NCBI RefSeq assembly: GCF_036226925.1
Contig: NZ_CP109031.1
Location: forward strand, 1-64,000
Source of the DNA: Streptomyces sp. NBC_00659
Lineage (GTDB): Bacteria; Actinomycetota; Actinomycetes; Streptomycetales; Streptomycetaceae
Reading direction: 5' to 3'
Length of the DNA: 64,000 nucleotides
Made by a program: the position numbers and the translations under genes. Below the pieces are notes generated by a model. It was not told where the DNA came from. It saw nothing but the letters and a program-made list of their open reading frames with translations, and did no database searches. Shown one piece after another: positions 15,816 to 62,708 of the stretch. The first letter of the stretch is position 1. Each line of letters starts with the position of its first letter.

Positions 15816-15931
15816 AGTGCACCCAATCTTGGTATGGCGTATCGCCCAGAGGAGTTCTGAGTTGAATTCACGTGTGGGGGTGAGTGGCTTTCGCCATGAA
15901 AAACGAACCATTCAGGCCGACCCCGCCACAA

Positions 15932-15946
15932 CCCCTACCGCCCCCT
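15932..15946 (+). promoter_or_regulatory. CCCCTA-N3-CCCCCT box near the halogenase operon
   Basis: CCCCTACCGCCCCCT lies about 120 bases upstream of the halogenase start (the gene runs leftward). The same pattern precedes the methyltransferase and dpgA. The two CCCCT units are 10 bases apart, about one helical turn, as expected for a dimeric activator. Confidence 0.55.
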
Positions 15947-16479
15947 AGGAGCCCTTGACCGCCGGCCGAGAACGGAGAATTCCGTTTCTTCTTGCGTTGT
16001 GATTGCGGATGTTTTCCCGGACCCGGCCGTTGTGCCGCGGGCAGGGTGCCGGGGGGCGGGGTGCCGGGGGCGGACAGGCTGTGGCACCGAGGCGAAGGAG
16101 CAGCGGAATGCCCCTCCGGGCTCGCCTGTTGTGGACCGATCCATCGGCTCACGGTCCCCGGAGCGGTTCCTCACCGTGGGGCCTCGGCCGGGAGCCGGCC
16201 GCTCGAGTGGCGCCGGGACGCGGGCCGAGGGGGGCGGATGCAGGGGCAGGCCCGCCGGAGACGGGCCCTGGCGCGTGGGCCGCAGGGGGGAGCGGCCGGG
16301 TGCGCCGGGCGGGCCTTCCGGGTGCGGATCCTGGTGGATGCGCGGGGCCTGCCCCTGGAATGCCGAACGCGGGACCTGCGGGGTCCGACGCCGCCCAACG
16401 TCGCCGGCGGGTCTCCGAATTCCTGATCGGCACTACGAGAATTGAGCCACAGGACGGACCCGGATTCAACTCCTGGTGG

Positions 16480-16494
16480 CCCCTAGAGCCCCCT
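16480..16494 (+). promoter_or_regulatory. CCCCTA-N3-CCCCCT box upstream of the methyltransferase and PKS genes
   Basis: CCCCTAGAGCCCCCT is followed directly by GCCTT, closely matching the box before dpgA (CCCCTATCACCCCCT then GCTTT). A further AGGGG in opposite orientation lies at 16528-16532. The box sits about 100 bases before the GTG start at 16597. Confidence 0.6.
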
Positions 16495-16596
16495 GCCTTG
16501 CTGCGGGATGTCCCCGGAATTCGTTTTAGGGGTTGGTGCACGGACGGGCCCTCCATAACTTGGTAATCGTCCATGACTTGAGGGCAAGGGGACAAG

Positions 16597-17232
16597 GTGA
16601 CCGAGCAATCTTTCAAGCAGAGCCGTGATGTGGCCCAGTTCCAGAACTGGGGCCCCACCTATGAGGACAGCCGAATTCAGCGGATCCGGGACCGGATTCA
16701 TCAGTCGCTCGTCGACTGGGTCGGCGAGCAGGGAGTCCGGCCGCAGAACGTGCTCGACGTGGGCTGCGGGACGGGTGCGCTGCTGCGGCGCGTCGGGATC
16801 CGCTTCCCGGACGCCGAGCTGACCGGCGTGGACGTGTCCCCGAGCATGGTGGAGACGGCACGCGCGAAGGTCCCCGAGGGGCTTCCCGTGACGTTCGTGC
16901 ACGGGGCGGCGGAGCAACTGCCGTTCGAGGACGCGTCGTTCGACCTGGTCGTCTCGACGATCTGCTTCCACCACTGGCGCAGCCGCAACGAGGGGCTCGC
17001 CGAGATCCAGCGGGTGCTCAGGCCGGGCGGCCGCGTTTTCATCGCCGACCACTACGCGGTCGGCTGGCTGCGTCCGTTCTTCGCGGTGACCCGCTGCCGC
17101 GACCGGGTGCACACCCGCGAGGAACTGACCCGCATGTACGGCGCGGCCGGTCTGCGGGCGGACCGGTGGAAGCTGCTCGACCGGCTGGCGAAGCTGCCGT
17201 TCATCCACGGGATCGGCGCCGTCAAGCCGTGA
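16597..17232 (+). CDS. SAM-dependent methyltransferase (class I)
   Basis: A 211-residue methyltransferase with motif [10 protein letters not shown] at about residues 49-57, an acidic T-G-V-D-V residue near 77, and post-I and motif II regions (F-D-L-V-V-S near 115, L-R-P-G-G-R-V near 142). It transfers a methyl group from S-adenosylmethionine, probably to an oxygen of the polyketide or its aromatic ring. The start is a GTG with AAGGGG upstream. It lies between the cluster's divergent promoter region and the first PKS gene, separated from the latter by hairpins. Confidence 0.82.
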
Positions 17233-17246
17233 TCGGAAGCCATCCG

Positions 17247-17307
17247 GCACCGCCCCGTGGCGGTGCGTCGAGCGGATGACGAGGGGCCGGGGATCCTCAC
17301 CGGCCCC
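17247..17307 (+). terminator. Tandem hairpins between methyltransferase and PKS gene
   Basis: Hairpin 1 is GCACCGCC (17247-17254) paired with 17259-17266 over a 4-base loop. Hairpin 2 is GGGGCCGG (17283-17290) paired with 17300-17307, followed by the pyrimidine-rich CTCTTTTCCTCTCC. This looks like an intrinsic terminator or attenuator. Only 67 bases separate it from the PKS start codon, so the PKS genes depend on read-through, a very short own promoter region, or relief of termination. Confidence 0.55.
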
Positions 17308-17374
17308 AGCCGCTCTTTTCCTCTCCATTTCCCGCGTTTCTGCTCCGTCTTCGCGTGACCGAGGAGTCTGTTCC

Positions 17375-30799
<13,425 letters not shown>

Positions 30800-33754
30800 A
30801 GGACGTGATGTTCGCGGCCGAGGACGATCTCCTCGACCAGACCCAGTACACCCAGGCCGCCCTCTTCGCCTTCGAGACCGCCCTCCACCGGCTCGTCACC
30901 AGCTGGGGCATCACCCCCGACACCCTGGCCGGACACTCCATCGGCGAACTCACCGCCGCCCACCTCGCCGGACTGTGGACCCTGGACGACGCCGCCCGCG
31001 TGGTCACCGCACGCGGACGCCTCATGCAAGCCCTCCCCGCCGGCGGCGCCATGGCCGCCATCGAAGCAACCGAACAGGAAATAACCCCGCTGCTGCGCGG
31101 ACAGGCCGTCATCGCCGCCGTCAACGGACCCACCTCCACCGTCATCTCCGGCGACGAAGAATCCGTGGAAGCGGTCCTCGCCGAACTCTCCACCCAGGGA
31201 CGGAAGGTCAAACGGCTCACCGTCAGCCACGCCTTCCACTCACCCCTCATGGAACCCATGCTCCACGACTTCCAACAAGTCCTGGAGTCGGTCGAGTTCC
31301 ACTCCCCCACCCTGCCGATCATCTCCAACCTCACCGGACAACCCGCCGACCCCACCGACCTCCAGACCCCGACCTACTGGGTCCGCCACGTCCGCCAGAC
31401 CGTCCGCTTCCACGACAGCCTCCACACCCTCGCCGACCAGAACACCACCCGCCTCCTCGAAATCGGACCCGACGGAATCCTCACCGCCCTCGCCGCAGAC
31501 ACCCTCGAAGACACCACGTCCATCGCCACCCAGACCCGAAAGCACTCCGGGCCCTCGGCTCTGCTCGATGCCGTCGCCCAGCTCCACGTGCACGGCGCGT
31601 TGGTCGACTGGAGCGCCTACCTCGCGGGCTCCGGCGACGGGACCGTCGACCTGCCCACCTACCCCTTCCAGCACACCCACTACTGGCTGGAGCCCACGGC
31701 CGCCGAGGAACCGGCAGGCACTGATGCCCAGTTGTGGGAGGCCGTCGAGGGCGACGATCTCCAGTCGCTGGCCGAGGTGCTGGGGACGGACGTGGACGAA
31801 CGGCTGGAGGCGCTGCTGCCGCTGCTCTCGTCGTACCGCCGGGCGGTACGGCACGAGGACGCGACGACGGCCTGGCGGTACCGGGTCGGCTGGCAGCGGC
31901 TGGTGTCCGGGCGGGGTTCGGGCCCGGGTGGGCAGGCACGCCGTTGGCTGGTCGTGCTGCCGGAGGAGTCGGCGGCGGACTCGCCGTACTCGGATCTGAG
32001 CGGTCTGGAGGGGAAGGGTGTCGTGCCCGTCCCGCTGCGGCTGCCGAAGGGGGCTGGCCGGGCTGCGGTGGCGGAGGCTCTGCGTGCCGCCGCGCCGGCG
32101 GGGCCGGACGAGATCGGTGGCGTGCTGTCCCTGCTCGGGCTGGACGAAGAGCCTCTGGAGGAGTTCCCGTCCGTGTCCGCCGGGCTCGCCGGCACTCTCG
32201 CGCTCAGCCAGGCCCTCGGTGACATCGGTCTGGCCTGCCCGCTGTGGCTGGCCACCAGCGGTGCCGTCGCCGTCGGCGCCGGCGACGCCGTCACCCGGCC
32301 GACCCAGACCCAGCTCTGGGGTCTGGGGCAGACGTTGGGGGCGGAATCTCCGGACCGGTGGGGCGGGCTGATCGATCTGCCCGCCGTGCCCGACACCCGC
32401 ACGCTGGAGCAACTGGCCGCCGTACTCGCCGACCCGCAGGACGAGAACCAGCTCGCCCTGCGCCCTTCCGGCGCCCACGCCCGCCGCCTCACCCACACCA
32501 CCCACACCACCCCCGACCAGCACTGGCAACCCCACGGCACCGTCCTCGTCACCGGCGGCACCGGCGCCCTCGGCACCCACGTCGCCCGCTGGCTCGCCAC
32601 CCACGGAGCCCAGCACCTCATCCTCACCAGCCGACGCGGACCCCACGCACCAGGAGCAGCACAACTCCAGACCGAACTCGAAAACCTCGGCACCCACGTC
32701 ACCATCACCGCCTGCGACACCTCCGACCGCCACGCCCTCGCCGCACTCCTCGACCAACACCCGCTCAACGCCGTCGTCCACACCGCCGGCGTCCTCGACG
32801 ACGGCGTCCTGGACACCCTCACCCCCCACCGCCTCCACACCGTCCTGACCGCCAAAGCCACCACCGCCCACCACCTCCACGAACTCACCACCGGACACGA
32901 CCTCGACGCCTTCATCCTCTTCTCGTCCGTGGCGGGGGCGTTCGGGGCCGCCGGACAGGGGAACTACGCGGCGGCCAACGCCTACCTGGACGGCCTCGCG
33001 GAGCACCGCCGCTCCCTCGGACTGCCCGCCACCTCCATCGCCTGGGGCGCCTGGGCCGAGGGCGGCATGGCGACCGGCGGAGCGGCGGCCAGGCGGCTGG
33101 AGCTGAGCGGGGTGCGGCCGATGGCGCCGCAGGACGCGGTGGCGAAGCTGCGGCACGCCGCGGACGGCCGTACGGGCGGGTTCGTCGTCGCGGACATCGC
33201 GTGGGACCTGTTCACCCGGGAGTCGGGCTCCGGCCGGCCGAACCCGCTGTTCACTGCCCTGCCCGAGGTACGGGCGGCCCAGCCGGACGGCACGGCCGAA
33301 CGGCGGGAGGCGGAGCCGGCCGAGGCACTGCTCGCGCGGCTCGCGGACGCGTCGGGGCCCGAGCGGGTCCGGGTGCTCGGCGGGCTGGTGCGGCGCGGGG
33401 CGGCCGAGGTGCTCGGCTTCGGTTCGCCCGACGCGGTCGATCCGGAACGGGGCTTCGTGGAGCTCGGCTTCGACTCGCTGCTCGCGGTCCGGCTGCGCAA
33501 CCGGCTGGGCGCGGAGACGGGTCTGCGGCTGCCGCACACGGTGATCTACGACCACCCGACCCCGGCGGCGCTGGCCGCGCACCTGCTGGCGGAGCTGTTC
33601 GCCGCCCCGGAGGAGGACCCCGAGCCGGTGCCGGAGGTCGTACCGGACGGCGCGCTGCTGGAGACCGACCTGGACGCGCTCGATGTGGACGCACTGATCC
33701 AACTGACACGCAAGAGCCTGTGAAACCCTCTTCATCGCGGGAGCTGGACAGCGA

Positions 33755-45514
<11,760 letters not shown>

Positions 45515-45530
45515 GACGGAGAGAACTCGC

Positions 45531-48500
45531 ATGACGACCAACGAAGACAAGCTCCGCGAGTACCTCAAGCGGGCCATCACCGACGCCCGTCAGGCCCACC
45601 GCAGGCTGCGCGAGGTCGAGGAGGAGAAGTACGAGCCCATCGCCGTCGTGTCGATGAGCTGCCGGCTGCCGGGCGGGGTGCGTTCGCCCGAGGATCTGTG
45701 GCGGCTCGTCGAAGCGGGCACGGACGCGGTCGGCACTTTCCCGGCCGACCGCGGCTGGGACGTGGAGAACCTGTACGACCCCGACCCGGACGCCCCGGGC
45801 AGGATCTACGCCGAGGGCGGTGGCTTCCTCGACGACGCGGGCGGCTTCGACGCCGGCTTCTTCGGGATCAGCCCGCGTGAGGCGCTCGCCATGGACCCGC
45901 AGCAGCGGCTGCTCCTGGAGACCTCCTGGGAGGCGTTCGAGCGGGCGGGCATCGACCCGCACTCGGTGCGCGGCGGCCGGGTCGGCGTCTTCGCCGGCAC
46001 CAGCGGCCAGGACTACGCGATGCTGGCCGCGGGCGCCGCCGGCGACGACGGCTATCTCGCCATCGGCAACGCGGCGAGCGTCGTCTCCGGCCGCATCTCC
46101 TACACGCTGGGCCTGGAGGGCCCGGCGGTCACGGTCGACACGGCCTGCTCGTCCTCGCTGGTCGCGATCCACCTGGCGGCCCAGTCCCTGCGGCTCGGCG
46201 AGTGCGAACTCGCCCTCGCGGGCGGCGTCGCGGTCGTCTCGACGCCCGAGGGGCTGGTGGCCTTCAGCCGCCAGCGGGGGCTGGCCCGCGACGGCCGCTG
46301 CAAGGCCTTCTCCGCGGCGGCCGACGGCTTCGGTTACGCCGAGGGCGTGGGTGTGCTGCTCCTGGAGCGGCTGTCCGACGCGCAGAAGAAGGGCCACAAG
46401 GTCCTGGGCGTCATCCGTGGTTCGGCCGTCAACCAGGACGGTGCGAGCAACGGCCTCACCGCGCCGAACGGTCCGTCGCAGCAGCGGGTCATCCGGCAGG
46501 CTCTCGCCAACGCCCGTATCACGGCCGCCGATGTGGACACGGTGGAGGCGCACGGCACCGGCACCAAGCTGGGTGACCCGATCGAGGCACAGGCTCTGCT
46601 GGCCACCTACGGCAAGGACGACCGCGAACAGCCTCTGTGGCTGGGCTCGTTGAAGTCGAACATCGGGCATGCGCAGGCCGCCGCGGGCGTGGCCGGTGTG
46701 ATCAAGATGGTGCAGGCGATGCGGCACGGGGTGCTGCCCAAAACCCTGCACGCCGACGAGCCGACCCCGCACGTCGACTGGTCGGCGGGTGCGGTGGAGC
46801 TGCTGGCCCAGGCCCGGGACTGGCCCGAGGCCGACCGGCCGCGGCGGGCCGGTGTGTCCTCCTTCGGGATCAGCGGCACCAACGCGCATGTGATCCTGGA
46901 GCAGGCACCGGCCGAGGAGCCCGCCGAGCAGGCTGAGGTCCAGCCGGGACGTGAACTGCCCGTTGTGCCCTGGGTGTTGTCGGCCAAGAGCCGGCCCGCG
47001 CTGCGGGAGCAGGCCGCACGGCTCGCCGCGCACGTCACCAGTGACCAGGACGCGTCGCCGCTGGATGTGGCGCTGTCGCTGGCCGTGTCACGGACCGGCT
47101 TCGACCAGCGGGCCGTCGTCGTCGGCGCGAACCGGCAGGAACTGATCGCGGGGCTCACGACCGTGGCCGAGGGACGCCCCGGGATCATCTCCGGGACCGC
47201 CAAAGCCGGGCGCACCGCGTTCCTGTTCACCGGACAGGGCGCCCAACAGGCCGGTATGGGGCGCGAGTTGTATAACGCCTTCCCCGTCTTCGCCGACGCG
47301 CTGGACACCGCATGCGCCGCACTCGACGCTCATCTGGACCGGCCGCTGAAGGACGTGATGTTCGCGGCCGAGGACGCGGCACTGGACCAGACCCAGTACA
47401 CGCAGGCCGCCCTGTTCGCCTTCGAGATTGCCCTTTACCGGCTCGTCACCAGCTGGGGCATCACCCCCGACACCCTGGCCGGACACTCCATCGGCGAACT
47501 CACCGCCGCCCACCTGGCCGGACTGTGGACCCTGGACGACGCCGCACGGGTGGTCGCCGCACGCGGACGCCTCATGCAAGCCCTCCCGGCCGGCGGCGCC
47601 ATGGCCGCCATCGAAGCAACCGAACAGGAAATAACCCCCCTGCTGCGCGGACAGGCCGTCATCGCCGCCGTCAACGGACCCACCTCCACCGTCATCTCCG
47701 GCGACAAAGTCTCCGTCGAAGCGGTCCTTGCCGAACTCTCCGCCCAGGGACGGAAGGTCAAACGGCTCACCGTCAGCCACGCCTTCCACTCACCCCTCAT
47801 GGAACCCATGCTCCACGACTTCCAACAAGTCCTGGAGTCGGTCGAGTTCCACTCCCCCACCCTGCCGATCATCTCCAACCTCACCGGACAACCCGCCGAC
47901 CCCACCGACCTCCAGACCCCGACCTACTGGGTCCGCCACATCCGCCAGGCCGTCCGCTTCCACGACAGCCTGCACACCCTCGCCGACCAGGGCACCACCC
48001 GCTTCCTCGAAATCGGACCCGACGGCGTCCTCACCGCCCTCGCCCAACAGAACCTGGACGACACCACCGCCGCCGCCACCCAGACCAGAAAGCACACCGG
48101 ACCCAAAGCCCTGCTCGACGCCGTCGCCCGCCTGCACGTCCACGGCACGACCGTCGACTGGAGCGCCTACCTCGCAGACACCGGCGCCGAAACCGTCGAC
48201 CTGCCCACCTACCCCTTCCAGCACACCCACTACTGGCTCGAACCGAACACCCCCAAGAAGACGGTCCTTGCACAGGCCGTCCCCGAGGACGCCGATGCGG
48301 CCCTTGACGGCCCGACTCTGGTACAGCAGCTGGCTGCGCTCCCCCGCGCCGAGCAGGAGCGCGCGCTCCTGGACCTCGTACGGGCCGAGGCCGCGGGCGT
48401 GCTCGGGCATGCGGATGTCAACGAGGTCGAGCCGGAGAGTGCCTTCAAGGATCTGGGGTTCGACTCGCTGACCTCCGTGGAGTTCCGAAACCGGCTGCGT

Positions 48501-51500
48501 GCGGCGATCGGGGTCGAGCTGCCCGCGTCCCTCGTCTTCGACCACCCGGCCCCGCAGCGGCTCGCGGACCACTTGTGGGCGGAACTGCTCGGCAACGGCG
48601 AGCCGCAGGCCGCCGCGCGGGTCACGGCGGCCGCGCTCGACGAGCCGGTCGCCATCGTGTCGATGAGCTGCCGTTACCCCGGCGGGGTCGGCTCGCCCGA
48701 GGAGCTGTGGCGGCTGGTGGTGGAGGGCACGGACGCCATCGGTCCGTTCCCCTCCGACCGTGGCTGGGACATCGACAGCCTCTACGATCCCGACCCGGGC
48801 GTCTCCGGCCGTACGTACGTCCGTGAGGCGGGCTTCCTGCACGACGCGGCGGAGTTCGACGCGGAGTTCTTCGGGATCAGTCCGCGTGAGGCGCTCGCGA
48901 TGGACCCGCAGCAGCGGCTGCTGCTGGAGGCGTCCTGGGAGGCGTTCGAGCGGGCCGGGATCGATCCGGCGTCGTTGCGCGGCAGCCAGACCGGTGTGTA
49001 CGCGGGTGTCGTCGCCCACGACTACGGGACCCGGCTGGAGAAGGTGCCGGAGGAGCTGGAGGGCTACCTCTCCAGCGGAGGCGCCGCCAGTGTGGTCTCG
49101 GGCCGGGTCTCCTACACCTTCGGTCTCGAAGGGCCGGCGGTGACCGTCGACACGGCATGCTCGTCCTCGCTGGTCGCGATCCATCTGGCCGCGCAGTCCC
49201 TGCGGACGGGTGAGTGCTCGATGGCGCTGGCCGGCGGTGTGACCGTCATGGCGACGCCGGGCGCCTTCCTGGACTTCAGCCGCCAGCGCGGGCTCGCGCC
49301 CGACGGGCGGTGCAAGTCGTTCGCGGCGGAGGCCGACGGGACGATCTGGTCCGAGGGCATCGGTGTCCTGCTCCTCGAGCGGCTGTCCGACGCCCGTCGC
49401 CGTGGCCACCAGGTGCTCGGTGTCATCCGTGGTTCGGCCGTCAACCAGGACGGTGCCTCGAACGGCCTCTCCGCCCCCAACGGCCCCTCCCAGCAGCGGG
49501 TGATCCGGCAGGCCCTCGCCAACGCCCGTATCACGGCCGCCGATGTGGACACGGTGGAGGCACACGGCACCGGCACCAAACTCGGCGACCCGATCGAGGC
49601 ACAAGCCCTCCTCGCCACCTATGGCAAGGACCGCGAACAGCCTTTGTGGCTGGGCTCGTTGAAGTCCAACATCGGGCACACACTGGCCGCCGCCGGTGTC
49701 GGCGGTGTGATCAAGATGGTGCAGGCGATGCGGCATGGGGTGCTGCCCAAGACCCTGCACGTGGATGAGCCGACTCCGCATGTGGACTGGTCGGCGGGCG
49801 CGGTGGAGCTGCTGGCCGAAGCCCGGGACTGGCCCGAGGCGGACCGGCCGCGCCGGGCGGGTGTGTCCTCCTTCGGTATCAGTGGCACCAACGCGCACAT
49901 CATCGTCGAGCAGGCACCGCCAAAGGAGCAGCCCGAGGCAGAACCGGTGCGCGAACTGCCGGTCACCCCCTGGCTGTTGTCGGCCAAGAGCCAGGGAGCA
50001 CTGCGGGACCAGGCCGCACGGCTCGCCGCCCACCTCTCCGGGCGCGACCACACTCCCGCCGAGATCGCCCTGTCGCTGGCCACCACCCGCGCCCGCCTCG
50101 ACCAACGGGCCGTGGTCATCGGCAGCAACCTGGAGGAACTCCTCGCCGGTCTCGCGGCCGTGGCCGAGGGGAGTCCCGGCGCCCTCACCGGGAGTGCCCA
50201 GGCCGGGCGGACGGCGTTCCTGTTCACCGGTCAGGGCGCCCAACAGGCCGGTATGGGGCGTGAGTTGTATGACGCCTTCCCCGTCTTCGCCGACGCGCTG
50301 GACGCCGCATGCGCCGCACTCGACACCCATCTGGACCGGCCGCTGAAGGACGTGATGTTCGCGGCCGACAACAATCTCCTCGACCAGACCCAGTACACCC
50401 AGGCCGCCCTCTTCGCCTTCGAGATTGCCCTCCACCGGCTCGTCACCAGCTGGGGCATCACCCCCGACACCCTGGCCGGACACTCCATCGGCGAACTCAC
50501 CGCCGCCCACCTCGCCGGACTGTGGACCCTGGACGACGCCGCCCGCGTGGTCACCGCACGCGGACGCCTCATGCAAGCCCTCCCCGCCGGCGGCGCCATG
50601 GCCGCCATCGAAGCAACCGAACAGGAAATCACCCCACTGCTCCGCGGACAGGCCGTCATCGCCGCCGTCAACGGACCCACCTCCACCGTCATCTCCGGCG
50701 ACGAAGAATCCGTGGAAGCGGTCCTCGCCGAACTCTCGGCCCAGGGACGGAAGGTCAAACGGCTGACCGTCAGCCACGCCTTCCACTCGCCCCTCATGGA
50801 ACCCATGCTCGACGACTTCCAACAGGTCCTGGAGTCGGTCGAGTTCCACTCCCCCACCCTGCCGATCATCTCCAACCTCACCGGACAACCCGCCGACCCC
50901 GACCAGCTCACCACCCCCGCCTACTGGGTCCGCCACATCCGCGAAGCCGTCCGCTTCCACGACAGCCTGCGCACCCTCGCCGACCAGAACACCACCCGCC
51001 TCCTCGAAATCGGACCCGACGGCATCCTCACCGCCCTCGCCGCAGACACCCTCGAAGACACCACGTCCATCGCCACCCAGACCCGCAAGCACACCGGGCC
51101 CACCGCACTCGTCGAGGCCCTCGCCCAGCTCCACGTCCACGGCACCCCCGTCGACTGGACCGCCTACCTCGCAGACACCGGCGCCAAAACCGTCGACCTG
51201 CCCACCTACCCCTTCCAGCACACCCACTACTGGCTCGAGAGCTCGCTGCAGAGCGTGGTTTCGACGCTCGGGGAAAGTGCGGCCGTTCCGGTGGCCGACG
51301 CTGGGGAGGCCGCGCGGCTGGCGGGGTTGCCGGAGGGCGAGCGGGTGGATGCGCTGCTGGCGCATGTGCGGGAGCAGTCCGCGGCAGTGCTCGGGTATGC
51401 GGACGCCGGTGGGGTGGTGGCGCAGCGGTCGTTCCTGGAGTCCGGGTTCGACTCGCTGACCGCAGTGGAGCTGCGCAACCGGCTCAAGGCGCTGACCGGG

Positions 51501-52469
51501 CTGCGGCTCGGCGCGACGCTGATGTTCGACCATCCGACGCCCGAGCGGCTGGCCGCGTATCTGGCCGAGCAGCTCGGCGCGCGCGAGGTGGCGGACGAGG
51601 CGGCCGGAGAGGGGCCGGGGCCGATCGGGTCGCTGTACTGGCGGGCCTGTGAGCTGGGCAAGTTCGACGAGGCGCAGGAGGTGCTCAAGGCCGCGTCGCT
51701 GCTGCAGGAGCAGTTCCGTACGCCGGCTGAGGGGGTTCTTCCGGAGCCGGTGCGGCTGGCGACCGGTCCGGCGGACGGTGACGGGCCGGTGCTGGTCTGC
51801 TTCCCGTCGTTCAGCCCGGTGGCGGGTCCGCACGAGTACGCCCGTTTCGCCGCGTATTTCAGGGACGTACGGGATGTGTGGGCGCTGCCGGAGCCGGGGT
51901 TCGTCGGCGGGGAGAGCCTGCCGGCGGATGTGACCGCGCTGGCCGGGGCGCATGCCGAGGCGGCCCTGCGGTGCGCGGCCGGGCGGCCGTTCGTGCTGGT
52001 GGGACGTTCGGCGGGCGGCTGGGTCGCGCACGCGGTGGCCCAGCGGCTGGAGGAACTGGGCTCGCCGGCCGCGGCGATGGTGCTGCTCGACAGCTCCTCG
52101 CCGTCGGCGATGCAGAACTCGCCCGCCGCCACGGAGATGGCGAAGGCGATGCTCGACCGCGAGAACACCTTCGACCTGCTCAGCGACGAGCGGTTGTCGG
52201 CGATGGGCGGCTACATCCGGGTCTTCGAGGGCTGGGAGCCGCGGGGCCTGGCCACCCGGACGCTGCTGATCCGTGCCTCCGAGCACTTCGCGCAGGAGGC
52301 GCCGGACGGGGACGGCTGGCGGGCGGACTGGGAGTTCGCGGACGACCGGCTGGACGTGCCCGGAAACCACTTCACGATCCTCGAGGACCTTTCACACTCC
52401 ACCGCCGGGGCGGCACACGGCTGGCTGGAGGCGCTCACGGACGACGGCAACCAGGGAGAAAACCGATGA
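45531..52469 (+). CDS. Type I PKS C: modules 6 and 7 with thioesterase
   Basis: A 2312-residue PKS beginning with a charged coiled-coil docking helix (residues 1-34, D-K-L-R-E-Y-L-K-R), then KS-AT-ACP twice, then a C-terminal thioesterase. Neither module has any reductive domain, so the last two extensions leave beta-ketones. The start is 16 bases after PKS B with GGAGAGA upstream. The stop TGA overlaps the start of the FAD monooxygenase gene in ATGA, indicating translational coupling. It completes and releases the chain. Confidence 0.93.
45630..48580 (+). other. PKS module 6: KS-AT-ACP, non-reducing
   Basis: KS6 Cys is at 46146. AT6 has GHSIGE (Ser 47487) and HAFH (malonyl). The AT post-linker runs straight into the ACP (Ser 48465) with no KR remnant. 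Predicted result: acetate extension with the previous carbonyl kept as a ketone. Confidence 0.85.
48640..52469 (+). other. PKS module 7: KS-AT-ACP-TE, non-reducing, chain release
   Basis: KS7 Cys is at 49158; AT7 has GHSIGE (Ser 50484) and HAFH (malonyl); ACP7 Ser is at 51453. The TE (about 51620-52469) has G-R-S-A-G-G with nucleophile Ser at 52008 (residue 2160) and a late G-N-H-F with the catalytic His. The substrate of the TE should be a 3,5-dioxo thioester, which can cyclise to a 4-hydroxy-2-pyrone or be closed by a chain hydroxyl; which one cannot be told. Confidence 0.82.
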
Positions 52470-53674
52470 AGATCATCATTGTGGGCGCCGGTGTGGGCGG
52501 CGTGGCCGCTGCGGTCGCGCTGTCGCAGCGCCACGAGGTGGAGGTGTATGAGGCCGCCGACCAGCTGCGTACGGACGGCAACGGCGTGCTGCTGTACCCC
52601 AACGCCACGGGAATCCTCGACGAGTTGGGGGTCCCGGCCGAGAGCGTCGACGGGGCGCGTATGGAGGCGCTGGACCTGGTCGCGGACGGGGACACCCGGC
52701 TGATGCGGCTGGATCTGTCGCGGCTGGCGCGGCACTTCGGTGCCGAGATCCTGGTGACCAAGCGCGGTCATGTGCTGGCGAAGCTGGCCGGGCGGCTGCC
52801 GGACGGCGTGGTGCGGTTCGGCAAGCGGGCGGTGGCCGTCGAGGAGGCCGGCGGGAAGGCGACCGTGGCCTTCGAGGACGGCACGCGGGCCGTGGGTGAT
52901 GTGGTGCTGGGTGCGGACGGGCACCGGTCGCAGGTGCGGCGGCTGCTGGTGGACGAGCAGCCGGCCGTCTATCTGGGCGATGCGACCTGGCACGGCATCA
53001 CCAAGCTGCCGCACGAGTTCGCCCATGGTTCGCGGATCCACTCGCTGTACGGCAAGGAGGGCATCTGTGTGGTGCACCCCGTCGGCGGTGGCGAGGTGTA
53101 CTGGGCGTTCGAACTGCCCTTCAGGGACGGCGACACGGCCCCGCCCGGGGTGGACGGCAGGCCGGCCGCGCCGGGTGCCTCCGCGGTGCGTAACCTGCGG
53201 GAGCGGTTCGGGCACTGGACGTCCACGCCGATGCCGACGCTGCTGGAGACGATCACCGACGCGGATGTCGGTGTCTTTCCGCACATCCTGCACAGCGTGC
53301 GGGAGAACTGGTCCGCCGGGCCGGTGACCCTGCTGGGCGACGCGGCGCACGCGGTGCCGCCGCGGCTGGGCATGGGTCTGTGCCAGGCGCTGGAGGACGC
53401 GTGGGTGCTGAACCGGGTGCTGTCCCAGCCGGGGGCGACTCCTCGGGAGGCGTTGCGCCGGTACGAGGCGCTGCGCTGGCCCCGGATGCGGAAGATGCAC
53501 TCGATCGCCACGATGATGGGCCGCCGCAATCTGCCGCTGCCGCCCGGGCTGCTGCGTGTGGTGGGCGGCCTGCTGCCGATGACCTCGTACCAGCGGTCCC
53601 AGCTGCGCAGTCTGAGCAACTACTTGAACGACGACGCTCCGCCGCTGCCGGCGCGGTCGCTGCGGGTGGCGTGA
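52466..53674 (+). CDS. FAD-dependent monooxygenase
   Basis: A 402-residue group A flavin monooxygenase (PHBH fold). It has GAGVGG at residues 7-12, the D-G motif G-A-D-G-H-R-S near 149-155, and the FAD-ribityl motif G-D-A-A-H-A-V-P-P near 289. Using NAD(P)H and O2 it hydroxylates or epoxidises; likely substrates are the resorcinol ring or a chain double bond. It overlaps the PKS C stop by four bases, so it is made together with the last PKS and probably acts late. A perfect terminator follows 24 bases after its stop. Confidence 0.88.
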
Positions 53675-53698
53675 TCCGTTCCCGCTGCTGCCGGTGAC

Positions 53699-53734
53699 GG
53701 TTCGGCCCCCTCTCGTGGGAGAGGGGGCCGAACC
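53699..53734. terminator. Bidirectional terminator
   Basis: A perfect 16-bp stem (53699-53714 with 53719-53734) and a 4-base loop GTGG lie between the convergent monooxygenase and ABC permease genes. The rightward PKS transcript and the leftward transporter transcript both end here. Confidence 0.92.
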
Positions 53735-53779
53735 TCTTCGGGGTGGGCCCGCGGGGGACGGGCCCTTTCAGGGGGTCGG

Positions 53780-54610
53780 TCAGGCCGGGCGGCGGAAGCC
53801 GCGGACGGCGACGGGGATGGCGATCGCGCCGATCGCCGCGGAGAGGGCGACCGCGATGAGGGCGCCCCAGCCGACGGGGTGGGCGAGAGTGAGGTCGCGG
53901 GCGGCCTCGACGCCGTACGTCATCGGGTTGACCGTGGCGACCGCGCCGAGCCAGCCGGGCAGGCCGTCGACGGGGACGAAGGCGTTGGAGGCGAACATCA
54001 GCGGGAACATGGCCAGGAAGCCGACCGCCTGCATGGACTCGCCGTTGCGCAGCCAGACCGCGAGGGCGAGGAACACCCAGCCCAGCCCCCAGCCGATGGC
54101 CAGGGCGAGCCCGAAGGCGCCGAGGATGCCCAGGACGCCGCCGGCCGGTGAGAAGCCGAACAGTGCGACGGCCAGGAGCACCATGAGGGCGAGCCGGATG
54201 GCGCCGCGGGCCAGGTCGAAGACGCTGCGGGCGACCAGGACCGAGCCCAGCCAGATCGGCAGGGTGCGGAAGCGGGCCACCATGCCGTTCTTGATCTCTT
54301 CGTTGAGGCCGGTGCCGGACAGCAGTGCCGACTGCATGGCCGTGTTGACCATGATCGCCGGGACGAGGAAGTCGATGTAGCTGACGCCCGCGGGGAAGTC
54401 CGGTGTCTTGGAGATGCTGTTGAAGATCTGCCCGAACAGCAGCAGGAGGATCAGCGGCTGGAGCACGCTGAACAGCAGGAGTTTGGGGTCGGTGACGAGC
54501 CGCCTGAGCGACTTCTCGCTGAGGACGAGGATCTGGGTGGCGACGCCGGTGCCGCGCCAGGTGTCGGTGCGTAATGCGGTGGCGGTCGCCTTGGGAACGG
54601 TGCTGGTCAT
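53780..54610 (-). CDS. ABC-2 type transporter permease (DrrB-like)
   Basis: A 276-residue membrane protein with six hydrophobic segments; the first follows L-L-F-S-V-L-Q-P near residue 48 and a conserved N-P-M-T-Y-G-V-E segment lies near 228-235. It is the membrane half of a DrrAB-type exporter with the ATPase encoded 19 bases upstream. The likely role is export of the polyketide and self-resistance. The frame is open to 54742, but that part overlaps the ATPase gene; the ATG at 54610 has GGAG upstream. Confidence 0.88.
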   Translation of the reverse strand: MTSTVPKATATALRTDTWRGTGVATQILVLSEKSLRRLVTDPKLLLFSVLQPLILLLLFGQIFNSISKTPDFPAGVSYIDFLVPAIMVNTAMQSALLSGTGLNEEIKNGMVARFRTLPIWLGSVLVARSVFDLARGAIRLALMVLLAVALFGFSPAGGVLGILGAFGLALAIGWGLGWVFLALAVWLRNGESMQAVGFLAMFPLMFASNAFVPVDGLPGWLGAVATVNPMTYGVEAARDLTLAHPVGWGALIAVALSAAIGAIAIPVAVRGFRRPA

Positions 54611-54629
54611 GGCCGGTCTCCTTTCGTGA

Positions 54630-55580
54630 TCAGGCTGTTGCGACCGCCGCGGGGCGGTGGGCGTAGGTGAGGTACACGTCGTCGAGAGTGGGTTCCGCCA
54701 TGGACAGCCCGGTGAAGTCGATGCCGTGCTCGTCCAGGGCACGGACGACGGTGGCGACGTCGCGGGCCGCCGTCAGCGGGGTGGTGACGGTGGTGCCGCC
54801 CTCGTCGTGGGCGGGTGCGAGGCCGGCGCGCAGCAGTGCCTCGGTCGCCTGCGGCACGAGGCTCGCGTTGTCGAAGGTGACGGTGACGGAGTGCTGTCCG
54901 GCCCGTGCCTTGAGCTCGGCGGGGGTGCCGGAGGCCACGACGCGGCCCGAGGCGAGCAGGATGATGGAGTCGGCGAGCCGGTCGGCCTCCTCCAGGTACT
55001 GGGTGGTCAGCAGGACGGTGGCGCCCGCGCGGACCTGCTGTTCGACGACCTCCCACAGGGCGAGCCGGGCGGCCGGGTCGAGGCCGGTGGTCGGCTCGTC
55101 GAGGAAGATGACCTCGGGGTTGCCGATGAGTCCGGCGGCGAGGTCGAGGCGCCTGCGCATGCCGCCCGAGTAGGTGCGGACGGGTTTGCGGGCGGCGCCG
55201 GTCAGGTCGAACAGGGTGATGAGTTCGTCCGCGCGCGCGGCGGCCTGGCGGCGGCCCGCGCCGAGCAGTCGCGCCAGGAGCACCAGGTTGTCGACGGCGG
55301 ACAGCCCGTCGTCGACGGAGGCGAACTGGCCGGTGACGCCGATCCTGCGGCGTACCTCGTCGGGCCGCCGTGTCACGTCGTACCCGGCGATCCTGGCGGT
55401 GCCCGCGGTCGGGGGCAGCGTGGTGGTCAGGATGTCGACCAGGGTGGTCTTGCCCGCGCCGTTGTGTCCGAGCAGTGCGAGGACGGTGCCGCGGGGCACC
55501 GCCAGGCTCACGTCCTCCAGGACGGTGGCGGTTCCGTATGTCTTGGTGAGGCCCACGGCCTCGATCACGGAATCGTTCAT
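54630..55580 (-). CDS. ABC transporter ATP-binding protein (DrrA-like)
   Basis: A 316-residue ATPase with Walker A GHNGAGKTT near residue 38, signature Y-S-G-G-M-R-R-R-L near 137, Walker B V-I-F-L-D-E-P near 157 and the switch His replaced by Gln in T-T-Q-Y. The C-terminal 80 residues are the extra domain of the daunorubicin-resistance (DrrA) family. It powers the permease encoded directly downstream. Drug-export ATPases of this family commonly accompany polyketide clusters. Confidence 0.9.
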   Translation of the reverse strand: MNDSVIEAVGLTKTYGTATVLEDVSLAVPRGTVLALLGHNGAGKTTLVDILTTTLPPTAGTARIAGYDVTRRPDEVRRRIGVTGQFASVDDGLSAVDNLVLLARLLGAGRRQAAARADELITLFDLTGAARKPVRTYSGGMRRRLDLAAGLIGNPEVIFLDEPTTGLDPAARLALWEVVEQQVRAGATVLLTTQYLEEADRLADSIILLASGRVVASGTPAELKARAGQHSVTVTFDNASLVPQATEALLRAGLAPAHDEGGTTVTTPLTAARDVATVVRALDEHGIDFTGLSMAEPTLDDVYLTYAHRPAAVATA

Positions 55581-55680
55581 GGGTGTCTCCCTCCCTCCGG
55601 TGCGTGCCGCACGGGTCGGTGTGCTGGTGGTGCGGTCCTGTCTGGTGGTGCGGTCCTTGTGCGGTGCGGCGAGATCGGGG

Positions 55681-55736
55681 CGGGCGGCGTGCTGCCGCCC
55701 GCCCCTCTCGCCCCGCCGCGGGGGATTTTCGGCGGG
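55681..55736 (-). terminator. Paired hairpins after the oxidoreductase gene
   Basis: On the minus strand the oxidoreductase stop (55737-55739) is followed at once by a 7-bp stem (55712-55718 with 55730-55736) and then an 8-bp stem (55681-55688 with 55694-55701). They probably end the oxidoreductase transcript and separate it from the ABC genes. Confidence 0.6.
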
Positions 55737-56687
55737 TCAGATGGTGATGACGGTCCGCTTGCCGGGAACGTCCGCCTCCCAGCGGGTCTCGATCTCCGAG
55801 AGCGGGGCGGTCACCACGTCGATCTTCAGGTTGCCGGCGGCCGTCTCCGTCATGACGCGGCCCCAGATCGCCTTGACCTCGTCGAGGTCGGGCAGGGAGC
55901 CGGAGCCGATGATGGTCACACCGCTGCGGCGCAGCGCGTTGCCGTCGATGGCGGCGAGCCGGCCGGCGCTGTTGCCGATCTGCAGGTAGCGGACGCCGGA
56001 CTTGACGACGAGTTCGCGGGGCAGGGCCTCGAGGAACTGTTCGGCCGGGTGGCCCCACACGTAGTCGAGCACGACGTTGAATCCGTCGCCGATGGCGTCC
56101 GCGTACGCGGCGGCGACCTCCTCGTCGCTTCCGCCGAGCGGGACGATCGCGTCCGCCCCGCGGTTCAGGAGCTGCTTGAGGACCTCCTCGTTGCGGCCGG
56201 CGGCGACGACGCGGCCGGCGCCCAGGATCTTGGCGATCTGGACGGCGAGCTGGCCGGCGACACCGGTGGCGCCGAGGACGAGCACGGACTCGCCCTGCTG
56301 GAGCTGGATGTGGGAGGCCAGCGGCAGCCAGGACGACAGGGAGGGGTTGATGAGCCCGGCCGCGGTGATGTCGTCGACGCCGTCCGGGACGTCGAAGAGC
56401 AGGATGCCGGGGGACACGCTCTTCTCGGCCAGCGAGCCGAACGGGGCGCGGCGGGCGCCGAATCCGACCCGGCGGCCGTCGGGCAGTGTGCCGACGCCCT
56501 CGACGCCGGCGACGAACGGCGGGGTGCGTCCCTCCGAGTAGTCGGGGTCGCGGGTGACCAGGCGGGTCAGGTTGGTCAGGGCGGCGGCCTTGACATCGAT
56601 CAGGACCTCACCCTGGCCGGCGGTCGGCTCCTCGAACTCGGCGTAACGGGGGGCCTGGCCGACGGTGTGAACTACAGCTGCGCGCAT
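55737..56687 (-). CDS. MDR-family quinone-oxidoreductase-like enzyme
   Basis: A 316-residue medium-chain dehydrogenase/reductase without the zinc ligands of alcohol dehydrogenases. The cofactor motif is L-G-A-T-G-V-A-G near residue 151, and G-V-E-G-V-G replaces the usual GHE zinc-site motif. Members reduce quinones or enones with NADPH. In this cluster it could reduce an oxidised aromatic or an enone, or protect against quinones. CTGGAGG eight bases upstream supports the ATG at 56687. It is far shorter than crotonyl-CoA carboxylase/reductase and so does not supply ethylmalonyl-CoA. Confidence 0.8.
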   Translation of the reverse strand: MRAAVVHTVGQAPRYAEFEEPTAGQGEVLIDVKAAALTNLTRLVTRDPDYSEGRTPPFVAGVEGVGTLPDGRRVGFGARRAPFGSLAEKSVSPGILLFDVPDGVDDITAAGLINPSLSSWLPLASHIQLQQGESVLVLGATGVAGQLAVQIAKILGAGRVVAAGRNEEVLKQLLNRGADAIVPLGGSDEEVAAAYADAIGDGFNVVLDYVWGHPAEQFLEALPRELVVKSGVRYLQIGNSAGRLAAIDGNALRRSGVTIIGSGSLPDLDEVKAIWGRVMTETAAGNLKIDVVTAPLSEIETRWEADVPGKRTVITI

Positions 56688-56860
56688 GGGGATGCCTCCA
56701 GAATGTGGCCATAAGGGATTTCGCATTGCTTACCGGTAGATGTGCTGGTGCCAGTGCGGGAAACGGGCGTACGTGTGACGCGCGAGGTGCTCGTACCGGC
56801 GAGGCGCATGCCTTGGTCATCCCGTACGGCACTCTCGTATGACTCGAGCGTGACTGGAGC

Positions 56861-56893
56861 CGTCCGTTCCGATCCGGCGGACCGGAACGGACG
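56861..56893 (-). terminator. Hairpin after the TetR gene
   Basis: CGTCCGTTCCG (56861-56871) pairs perfectly with 56883-56893 around an 11-base loop. It lies 20 bases beyond the stop of the leftward TetR gene. Confidence 0.7.
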
Positions 56894-56912
56894 TAGCGCG
56901 GATCAGTGCTGG

Positions 56913-57502
56913 TCAGAAGGCGAGGACGCCCTTGATGCGGTCCATGGCGAGTTCCATGAGATCGGGTAGCTGGGGGGCACAGTCCCGGTCCAGCCAGTAC
57001 TGGGCCGCCTGCGCGAAGGCCGCGTTGACGGCCGCCGCCGCGAGGCGCACCTCGAAGTCGTCGGGGCTGCGGCCGACCCGGTCGGCCAGGAGGTTGACCA
57101 GCTGGTCGAGGTTGGTGCGCTCCTCCCTCATCAGCCGGTCCCGCAGGGCGGGGACGCTGCTCATCAGACGGTGCCTGAGCAACAGGGCTTGGTGGTCGGC
57201 CTCCAGCAGACGGGCGGCGAACTCCTGGTAGACGGTGCGGACGACCTCCGCGAGCGGTTCGCCTGGCCGGACGGCCGAGCGAACGCGCGCTCCAGGAAGG
57301 GGTCGTAGCCCTCGTTGAAGAGCACGTCCTCCTTGGCGCGGAAGTGACGGTAGAAGGTGGCCGACGAGATGCCCGCGGCGCTCGCGATCTGCTCGACGGT
57401 GGTCGCCTCGAAGCCCTGCTTCACGAAGAGAGCCAGCGCCTCACGGCGTGCCTCACCCATCACGCGCTGCCGGTTGGCCTCACGCAGCCCCATGTCCATC
57501 AC
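56913..57502 (-). pseudogene. TetR-family regulator with a single-base frameshift
   Basis: The N-terminal part (57502 to about 57280) is a clear TetR helix-turn-helix: V-E-Q-I-A-S-A-A-G-I-S-S-A-T-F-Y-R-H-F near residues 36-54. At about 57275, in an alternating GCGCGCG run, the frame shifts; the second frame reads on as a good TetR C-terminal ligand domain to 56913 (L-L-L-R-H-R-L-M-S-S-V and onward). Restoring one base gives about 197 residues, a normal TetR length. Either the gene is broken, derepressing its targets, or one base was lost in sequencing. It is divergent from dpgA with an 18-bp repeat array between them, so it should repress itself and the starter-unit operon. Confidence 0.85.
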
Positions 57503-57527
57503 CCCGTCCCTGCATCCAGAGAGAACC

Positions 57528-57617
57528 TATCACTTCGAGAGGCCATCTCACTTCGAGAGGCCATCTCACTTCGAGAGCCTCTCTCATATCGAGAGACTCT
57601 ATCACTTTCGGGGGCGG
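57528..57617. repeat. Five 18-bp direct repeats, candidate TetR operator array
   Basis: Units start at 57528, 57546, 57564, 57582 and (partial) 57600, each a variant of TCTCACTTCGAGAGGCCA. Within units, TCTC and GAGAG form short inverted half-sites; the clearest is CTCTCATATCGAGAG at 57581-57595. The array starts 25 bases upstream of the TetR start codon. Regular 18-bp phasing with inverted half-sites points to tandem operators for the adjacent regulator. Confidence 0.7.
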
Positions 57618-57747
57618 CGTCAAGCGGCTTCGACCGAGCCCCGGCCGGACCCCGGCCGCACCTGGGCCGGACCCCGACCGCGGGCACCGGCCCCGCGGGC
57701 CGCCCGCCACGCGAATTCCATACCTCGAAAGCCCTCTCGGACAACCA

Positions 57748-57801
57748 CCCCTATCGAACCCCTATCACCCCCTGCTTTCCGTCGGAAAATCGCCCGATAA
57801 T
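57748..57801 (+). promoter_or_regulatory. dpg operon promoter with three CCCCT boxes
   Basis: CCCCT units begin at 57748, 57759 and 57769; the last two form CCCCTA-N3-CCCCCT (57759-57773). A TGCTTT at 57773-57778 and GATAAT at 57796-57801 are spaced by 17 bases, a good -35/-10 pair. The boxes thus end at the -35 element, the arrangement of helical-phase activator sites used by pathway-specific regulators such as SARP or LAL proteins. No such activator gene is in the window. Confidence 0.6.
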
Positions 57802-57892
57802 CCATTGTGGCGAATTACCGCCCGGCGCCTGTATGTTCAACGGTGCGACCTTCATGCCAATGAAATTCTGCGGTGCAGAAAGGGATCACCAC

Positions 57893-58966
57893 ATGATGCC
57901 GGTAGTTTCGCCGCTTCCACGAATACTCGGTGTCGGGACGGCGACTCCGCCGCACAGCTACTCGCAGCAGGAAGTTCTGGACGCCTTCGGCATCGAGAAC
58001 GAGAAAATAGTCTCGGTCTTTCAGAACAGCGCGATCGAGCGCCGCTATCTGAACCTTCCCCCGGTGGGGGAGGACGGCCGGCGCCGCATGGAGAGCCAGG
58101 GCGAACTGCTCGCCAAGCACGCCAGGTGGGGCGTCGACATGGGCGCCCGGGCGCTGCGGTCCTGCCTCAAGGACATCGGCGCCGAGCCGGACGACATCGG
58201 CTACCTCGCCTGCGTCACCACCACGGGTTTCCTCACCCCCGGCCTCAGCGCGAAACTGATCAAGGAGCTGCCGCTGTCCCCGCACACCCGTCGGCTCGAC
58301 GTGGTCGGCATGGGCTGCAACGCGGGTCTCAACGGGCTGACCGCCACGACCGCCTGGGCCTCGGCCAACCCCGGCCGACTCGCCCTGATGGTGTGCTCCG
58401 AGTCCTGCTCGGCCGCGTACGTCTTCGACGGCACCATGCGGACCGCCGTCGTCAACAGCCTGTTCGGGGACGGCGCCGCGGCCGTCGCCGTCATGGCCGA
58501 CGGCGAGGGAGGCGGCACCCGTCCCGGGGCCACGGTGCTCAAGTTCGCGAGCTACATGATCACCGAGGCGATCGACGCGATGCGCTACGACTGGGACGAC
58601 GAGGCCGGGAAGTTCAGCTTCTTCCTCGACCGCGAGGTTCCCTACGCGGTCGGCGCCCACGCCGAGATCGTCATCGGTGAGCTGCTCGACGGCACCGGGC
58701 TGCGGCGCAGCGACATCGCCCACTGGATCGTGCATTCCGGTGGAAAGAAGGTCATCGACTCGGTGGACGTCAATCTCGGACTCACCCGGCACGACCTTCG
58801 CCACACGACGAGTGTGCTGCGCGACTACGGAAATCTCTCCAGCGGTTCCTTCCTCTTCTCCTATCAACGGCTGCTGGAGGAAGGCGTCGTCCAAAAGGGC
58901 GAGCACGGAATCTTCATGACCATGGGTCCCGGATCGCAGATCGAGACGGCGCTCGTCCAGTACTGA
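57893..58966 (+). CDS. dpgA: DpgA-type type III PKS (3,5-dihydroxyphenylacetyl-CoA synthase)
   Basis: A 357-residue chalcone-synthase-fold enzyme. The active Cys lies in G-M-G-C-N-A-G (about residue 143), His in I-V-H-S-G-G-K-K (about 283) and Asn in Y-G-N-L-S-S-G (about 316). DpgA condenses malonyl-CoA units into the C8 ring precursor of 3,5-dihydroxyphenylglycine and related starters. The adjacent dpgB and dpgC homologues make this assignment more specific than type III PKS alone. The frame is open to 57344, but the ATG at 57893 has AAAGGG nine bases upstream and gives the usual length. It heads the starter-unit operon. Confidence 0.9.
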   Translation: MMPVVSPLPRILGVGTATPPHSYSQQEVLDAFGIENEKIVSVFQNSAIERRYLNLPPVGEDGRRRMESQGELLAKHARWGVDMGARALRSCLKDIGAEPDDIGYLACVTTTGFLTPGLSAKLIKELPLSPHTRRLDVVGMGCNAGLNGLTATTAWASANPGRLALMVCSESCSAAYVFDGTMRTAVVNSLFGDGAAAVAVMADGEGGGTRPGATVLKFASYMITEAIDAMRYDWDDEAGKFSFFLDREVPYAVGAHAEIVIGELLDGTGLRRSDIAHWIVHSGGKKVIDSVDVNLGLTRHDLRHTTSVLRDYGNLSSGSFLFSYQRLLEEGVVQKGEHGIFMTMGPGSQIETALVQY

Positions 58967-58995
58967 ACTCCACTCACAGGAAAGCGGGATTCGGA

Positions 58996-62677
<3,682 letters not shown>

Positions 62678-62708
62678 TCACCCGCCACGACTGAGGGAGA
62701 GCTGGAAG

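Follow-up and report, generated by a model that had tools for sequence, protein, structure and literature searches.

Clustered TAGGGGT/CCCCTA units as probable binding sites of a LAL-type activator in a halogenase, polyketide synthase, and dpg gene cluster of Streptomyces sp. NBC_00659

The left end of the chromosome of Streptomyces sp. NBC_00659 carries a gene cluster composed of a left halogenase operon, a methyltransferase/modular polyketide synthase (PKS) operon, and a dpg operon, the promoter regions of which share the pattern CCCCTA-N3-CCCCCT. These boxes are probably clustered binding units for an activator of the LAL (large ATP-binding LuxR) type, which would turn on all three operons at once. 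The likeliest activator is the predicted product of a LAL gene located at 71266-74268 (minus strand), 7.3 kb to the right of the window and in the same terminal repeat. The window refers here to the whole analyzed stretch, bases 1-64000 of the single contig NZ_CP109031.1 (9,661,321 bases). Genes were called with a codon-usage script, and transcription starts are inferred.

The Boxes and Their Promoters

The pattern is present exactly, on the + strand, at 15932-15946, 16480-16494, and 57759-57773, as the initial annotation had reported, and these three occurrences compare with none in any of 100 dinucleotide shuffles. A genome-wide search, which that annotation had proposed as a check, returned seven matches, versus three for the reversed pattern. 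Six of them are the three sites and their terminal-repeat copies, and the seventh, at 4955366, falls within a predicted gene. The extension GC(C/T)TT, said to follow the last two boxes (16480 and 57759), is also found. Other claims had to be revised. The box is best read as clustered shorter units rather than as one 15-base unit, and the 10-bp spacing first taken to be fixed is only one of several (same-strand spacings near LAL genes cluster at 9-13 and 20-21 bp). The core unit bound by a LAL-type activator would be TAGGGGT, the reverse complement of which is ACCCCTA.

In the halogenase promoter, the site (15931..15948, minus strand) reads CTAGGGGG-CGG-TAGGGGTTG on the halogenase strand. It consists of two direct units, CTAGGGGG and TAGGGGT, which are 10 bp apart and precede a -10 candidate by 40 and 30 bp. 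The methyltransferase/PKS promoter carries the box originally described, at 16480..16494 (+ strand), as a distal direct repeat, the distances of its CCCCT units to the -10 being 76 and 66 bp. A proximal unit, TAGGGGT at 16527..16533 (+ strand), had been overlooked: it adjoins the -35 region and lies 29 bp upstream of the predicted -10 of the operon, TAACTT (16556..16561, + strand).

Upstream of dpgA, the box belongs to a triple direct CCCCT repeat (57748..57773, + strand; starts at 57748, 57759, and 57769), the upstream third repeat at 57748 being additional to the box. It had been described as abutting a -35/-10 pair, but the candidate -10, GATAAT, is not conserved in Streptomyces mangrovisoli MUSC 149 (contig NZ_LAVA02000018). 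The conserved TANNNT, and predicted -10 of the dpg operon, is TATGTT at 57832..57837 (+ strand), with the three repeats 84, 73, and 63 bp away. No unit adjoining the -35 was found at dpgA, and no NAGGGR occurs upstream of TATGTT in either species. The last dpgA unit is positioned 63-65 bp from TANNNT in six of the seven dpgA promoters compared.

These arrangements suggest how activation might proceed. At the PKS and halogenase promoters, where the unit stands 29-30 bp upstream of the -10 and adjoins the -35, a bound LAL would make up for a poor -35 and bring in RNA polymerase, as MalT does. With the -10 hexamer placed at -12 to -7, TAGGGGT would span approximately -42 to -35, thus adjoining or overlapping the -35. 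Extra units one or two helical turns away may lead to cooperative binding. At dpgA, the activator would act from direct units of the other orientation, arrayed about 63-65 bp in front of the -10, and this is the least certain part of the mechanism.

Conservation in Streptomyces mangrovisoli

S. mangrovisoli possesses most of the cluster, with identities of 83% for the halogenase, 74-77% for the PKS, 62-88% for the dpg genes, and 53% for the LAL; gene calling gave no methyltransferase homologue ahead of its PKS. CCCCTA repeats are present upstream of both its halogenase and its dpgA. The halogenase units are found at 40 and 30 bp from the -10 in both species, the S. mangrovisoli -10 being TATCGT, and the dpgA units are at 84/73/63 bp in our strain versus 85/74/64 bp in the relative. 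At the PKS promoter, TTTAGGGGTTGGT is conserved, and TAGGGGT is separated from TANNNT by 29 bp in NBC_00659 and by 30 bp in S. mangrovisoli. The distal PKS units differ, at 76/66 versus 97/77 bp from the -10. The helix-turn-helix (HTH) regions of the orthologous LALs are identical at 53 of 63 positions.

Association with LAL Genes across Genomes

A motif-blind analysis was carried out around LALs of the same subfamily, which were located in 81 genomes using the C-terminal 300 residues of the LAL of NBC_00659. Of the 71 matches, 40 were used; those omitted had been met via the motif or dpgA, were broken or cut (two), or were lower-listed. The background comprised 35 regions, 20 with the reversed pattern and 15 pattern-bearing ones without LAL, which is a conservative choice. 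ACCCCTA was the top intergenic 7-mer by z-score (70 occurrences vs. 16 expected), and ACCCCTG was found 48 times vs. 9 expected. In promoter-bearing intergenic DNA (79.5 kb), 110 ACCCCT[AG] units were counted, compared with a single one in 9.6 kb between convergent genes. Same-strand CCCCT[AG] units formed 31 pairs at 9-13 bp and 18 pairs at 20-21 bp, that is, one or two helical turns, and inverted pairs gave no clear spacing peak in these 40 regions. Lastly, TAGGGGT preceded TANNNT by 29 bp (11 cases) or 30 bp (15 cases) in 26 of 70 occurrences, other offsets averaging 0.16; the promoters with [CT]AGGGGT numbered 27, or 25 after identical starts were dropped. In its fixed distance to the -10, the unit resembles that of a MalT-like promoter.

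The resulting pattern, TAGGGGT-N22/23-TANNNT, has three matches in the genome of NBC_00659, two of them at the duplicated PKS promoter and the third elsewhere. A relaxed proximal pattern also matches two places in the left end, 64889 and 110130. Among the 81 genomes, 53 of the 120 matches fell within 50 kb of a subfamily LAL, for about 1.2 expected from the mean genome size, and three fell within the same distance of LALs of other subfamilies. A match was found for 36 of 71 subfamily LALs versus 3 of 72 other LALs, the latter being those among the matches listed, with a few partial or duplicate entries omitted. As these 81 genomes include the source regions of the pattern, a second count was made on 118 other genomes; none of these was a source of the pattern, and nine had supplied background or dpg stretches. 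This count gave 97 matches in the 45 genomes with a subfamily LAL (2.16 per genome) versus 23 in the 73 without (0.32 per genome; Mann-Whitney p 5e-10). The reversed control showed no difference in the same genomes (95 vs. 159 matches, or 2.11 vs. 2.18 per genome). Among the matches listed (83 of 120), 30 lay within 50 kb of a subfamily LAL, with about 0.6 expected. The LAL-type site co-occurs with LAL genes across genomes beyond chance.

The box itself was followed through relatives of the cluster genes. Relatives of dpgA were sought in 392 genomes, 56 of which had a match, and 29 other loci, all oriented, were compared. CCCCTA repeats occur within 400 bp upstream of dpgA at six of them (G014, G015, G025, G041, G190, and G186), and each of the six has a LAL no more than 14 kb away; that of G186 is on the same contig, at about 7 kb. 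For two of the 23 repeat-less loci, G260 and G303, no LAL was seen in the stretches fetched, that of G260 extending only 3 kb to the left of dpgA. Among halogenase relatives of the genus (29 loci, 43-66% identical), 28 lacked a box in their flanks (about 1.5 kb) even when one mismatch was allowed, and one (L046) had a single one-mismatch match. A Nocardia halogenase relative (L022) had neither a CCCCTA repeat nor an adjoining LAL; the only two exact pattern matches in that Nocardia genome lie elsewhere, 0.3 and 2.6 kb from LAL genes. A plasmid search gave no match.

As a genus-wide marker, the box pattern proved weak and was not retained. With one additional A (CCCCTANNNCCCCCTA), it had 25 matches in 150 genomes, which is fewer than its reversed control, and regions were fetched for 20 of the 23 places outside NBC_00659 and for 20 of 41 control places. 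A LAL was present in 5 of the 20 CCCCTANNNCCCCCTA regions, versus 0 of 20 regions with the reversed pattern. The TAGGGGT unit with its -10 is a better marker. This lack of genus-wide over-representation, together with the 15 fetched regions that had no LAL, is what would be expected if the boxes were chance C-rich repeats of a GC-rich genome, devoid of function. Such an explanation is nevertheless very improbable in view of the shuffled sequences, the conservation between species, the concentration in promoter-bearing intergenic DNA, the 29/30-bp phasing, and the LAL association in further genomes.

Candidate Regulators

The initial annotation took the box for the operator of an activator encoded outside the window, either a SARP or a LAL to its right. 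The presence of the LAL gene 7.3 kb away, and the way in which the sites track LAL genes across genomes, are consistent with an outside activator and favor the LAL. Read from its first start codon, the 71266-74268 gene encodes 1000 residues, with a predicted GerE HTH (PF00196, 50.1 bits) at residues 937-988 and a predicted N-terminal ATPase domain (AAA_16, PF13191, 42.7 bits) at residues 76-230. By this predicted architecture, the protein is a LAL with one defining motif missing. A neighboring 418-residue protein (74232-75488), which lacks an HTH, is similar to a portion of a LAL.

A SARP gene is also found to the right of the window (75792-76652), and direct repeats of about 11 bp adjoining a -35 could be SARP sites. 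The SARP-LAL PimR, for example, binds heptamers with 3-4 bp spacers, making 10-11 bp repeats (PMC5930380). We regard this as improbable, because a SARP occurs in just 6 of the 40 LAL regions and in 0 of the 21 that have a LAL-type promoter, because the site association in the 118 further genomes is with LAL genes, and because the core unit does not resemble CGGCAAG, the heptamer published for PimR (PMC5930380).

Several observations weigh against the boxes being sites for the 71266-74268 LAL. Two of the three exact 15-base matches in S. mangrovisoli are elsewhere in its genome, one between genes and the other within a predicted gene, and neither has a LAL in its 1.5-kb flanks. The halogenase -10 candidate in NBC_00659, TTCGTT, is weak. 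In the 40 LAL regions, CCCCTA was second among 6-mers (141 vs. 65.5 expected), behind CAATGC; 44 of the 70 TAGGGGT units near LALs had no TANNNT at 29-30 bp; and some promoters stem from related clusters, and hence are not independent. The distal dpgA arrangement fails at G014, the remaining one of the seven promoters compared. It was also rejected as a general rule, because the 40 LAL regions showed no TANNNT peak for CCCCT[AG] at 63-66 bp, and it is therefore restricted to the dpgA and PKS promoters seen. As to the regulator, the canonical Walker A motif GxxxxGK[ST] is replaced by GPPGCGDPS in the 71266-74268 LAL and by GPPGCADPS in its S. mangrovisoli orthologue; the Walker A lysine is important in MilR and PikD (PMC5015266). 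The shared lysine-less P-loop, GPPGC[GA]DPS, would possibly denote an ATP-independent LAL. Moreover, a second LAL (LAL2, 133238-135520) is also a candidate for the acting regulator.

LAL2 has an intact P-loop (GSSGTGKS) and a GerE domain, and lies near a crotonyl-CoA carboxylase/reductase gene, with two facing arrays of three CCCCTG upstream (129945-130017). The S. mangrovisoli homologues of this reductase and two of its neighbors (55-83% identical) are inside the main cluster, between the halogenase and the PKS. It may thus be that the boxes are indeed LAL sites read by LAL2, or by a LAL elsewhere in the genome, the 71266-74268 protein being a degenerate relic, as the lysine missing from it and from its orthologue alike would suggest. 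This is a minority possibility, much less probable than the activator adjoining the cluster: an orthologue of the latter with a nearly unchanged HTH adjoins dpgD in S. mangrovisoli, and LAL2 gave only partial matches (33-45%) with the four LAL-like S. mangrovisoli proteins compared.

Genomic Context

The first 139,999 bases of the left end match the final 140,000 bases of the other end, once these are reverse-complemented, at 99.996% identity, with six differences, and a further search placed the repeat's inner boundary close to base 155,291. The chromosome is linear, with terminal inverted repeats of about 155 kb, and every feature of the window is, therefore, duplicated.

The FAD-dependent halogenase gene (14340..15815, minus strand) is the first of the leftward operon; its product matches Trp_halogenase and has an 83% identical orthologue in S. 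mangrovisoli. On the + strand, the methyltransferase gene (16597..17232) precedes the modular type I PKS genes (17276..52469), the first of which encodes a loading AMP-ligase and a carrier protein. This PKS1 gene (17276-33720) is broken into two open reading frames within an acyltransferase domain, and is a single frame of 5523 residues in S. mangrovisoli. A one-base gap separates the terminal copies near the split, which is either a real break or an assembly error.

The dpg operon (57896..64000, + strand) contains dpgA, dpgB, dpgC, a benzoylformate-decarboxylase-like gene, and an aldehyde dehydrogenase gene, for a 3,5-dihydroxybenzoate starter; such a set of genes is a published route to this starter (PMC5132015, PMC8708025). 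The aldehyde dehydrogenase gene crosses the end of the window and stops at 64169, followed by dpgD at 64194-65006. Both dpgB and dpgD were named from their position and homologues. Between dpgD and the LAL gene, 65302-71044 holds a PKS remnant, with an acyltransferase and a carrier protein, and a gene called acyl-CoA carboxylase-like on the basis of its sequence only; in S. mangrovisoli, the LAL directly adjoins dpgD, with no genes between.

Upstream of dpgA, a leftward TetR-like gene (56913-57499) reads as two fragments, and the terminal copies differ there at two positions. Immediately upstream of it is an 18-bp tandem repeat, TCACTTCGAGAGGCCATC (3.7 copies, 57519-57607), which is perhaps the operator of the TetR-like gene itself. 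Judging by protein starts only, the same terminal repeat also seems to contain, at 98595-101445, a second cluster, aromatic in kind (type II PKS-like).

Relation to Known Systems and Significance

A close parallel is MalT, described in E. coli and Actinoplanes. It is a LAL-type protein with a C-terminal LuxR HTH, recognizing short, G-rich, asymmetric units that also occur as direct repeats (PMC7567727, PMC9628970), and its sites overlap the -35 (PMC7567727). The present system differs from it by its core (TAGGGGT versus GGA(T/G)GA for MalT), by the other orientation of the distal array at dpgA, and by the missing P-loop lysine of the proposed activator. PimR-type SARP-LALs likewise use direct repeats about one helical turn apart with cooperative binding (PMC5930380), but the heptamer is bound there by the N-terminal SARP domain, and PimR has no LuxR HTH.

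Two homologous LALs, VemR and Kmy4, activate the dpg-type venemycin (PMC5132015) and kendomycin B (PMC8708025) clusters, respectively. As here, the LAL adjoins a 3,5-dihydroxybenzoate/type I PKS cluster. NBC_00659 has a longer PKS than the 29.5-kb vem cluster does, and its halogenase is only 34% identical to those of the vem-like clusters fetched. The available passages of the two papers give no operator for VemR or Kmy4 (PMC5132015, PMC8708025).

In the two papers examined from a literature search for the site, the matching letters were in primers. A LAL site of the patent literature, CTAGGGGGTTGC, which the literature searches made here did not return, has a core and a subsequent TTG resembling TAGGGGTTG. 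For the geldanamycin regulators, a 2019 paper states that the recognized sequences were still to be found (PMC6784220), and no consensus could be predicted for the LAL SCO6993 according to a 2022 paper (PMC9628970).

It is conceivable, although we would not at present bet on it, that TAGGGGT-N22/23-TANNNT is a general promoter code of a large subfamily of cluster LALs across Streptomyces. It would be read here by a lysine-less LAL, constitutive or differently gated, from two phased arrangements, one with a unit adjacent to the -35 and one with a distal array of opposite orientation at about 65 bp from the -10.

LAL activators govern many polyketide clusters, and their recognition sequences are often unknown. 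With a short site that keeps a fixed distance to the -10, LAL regulons could be predicted from sequence; the site also indicates which promoters and which activator to use for waking silent clusters like this one.

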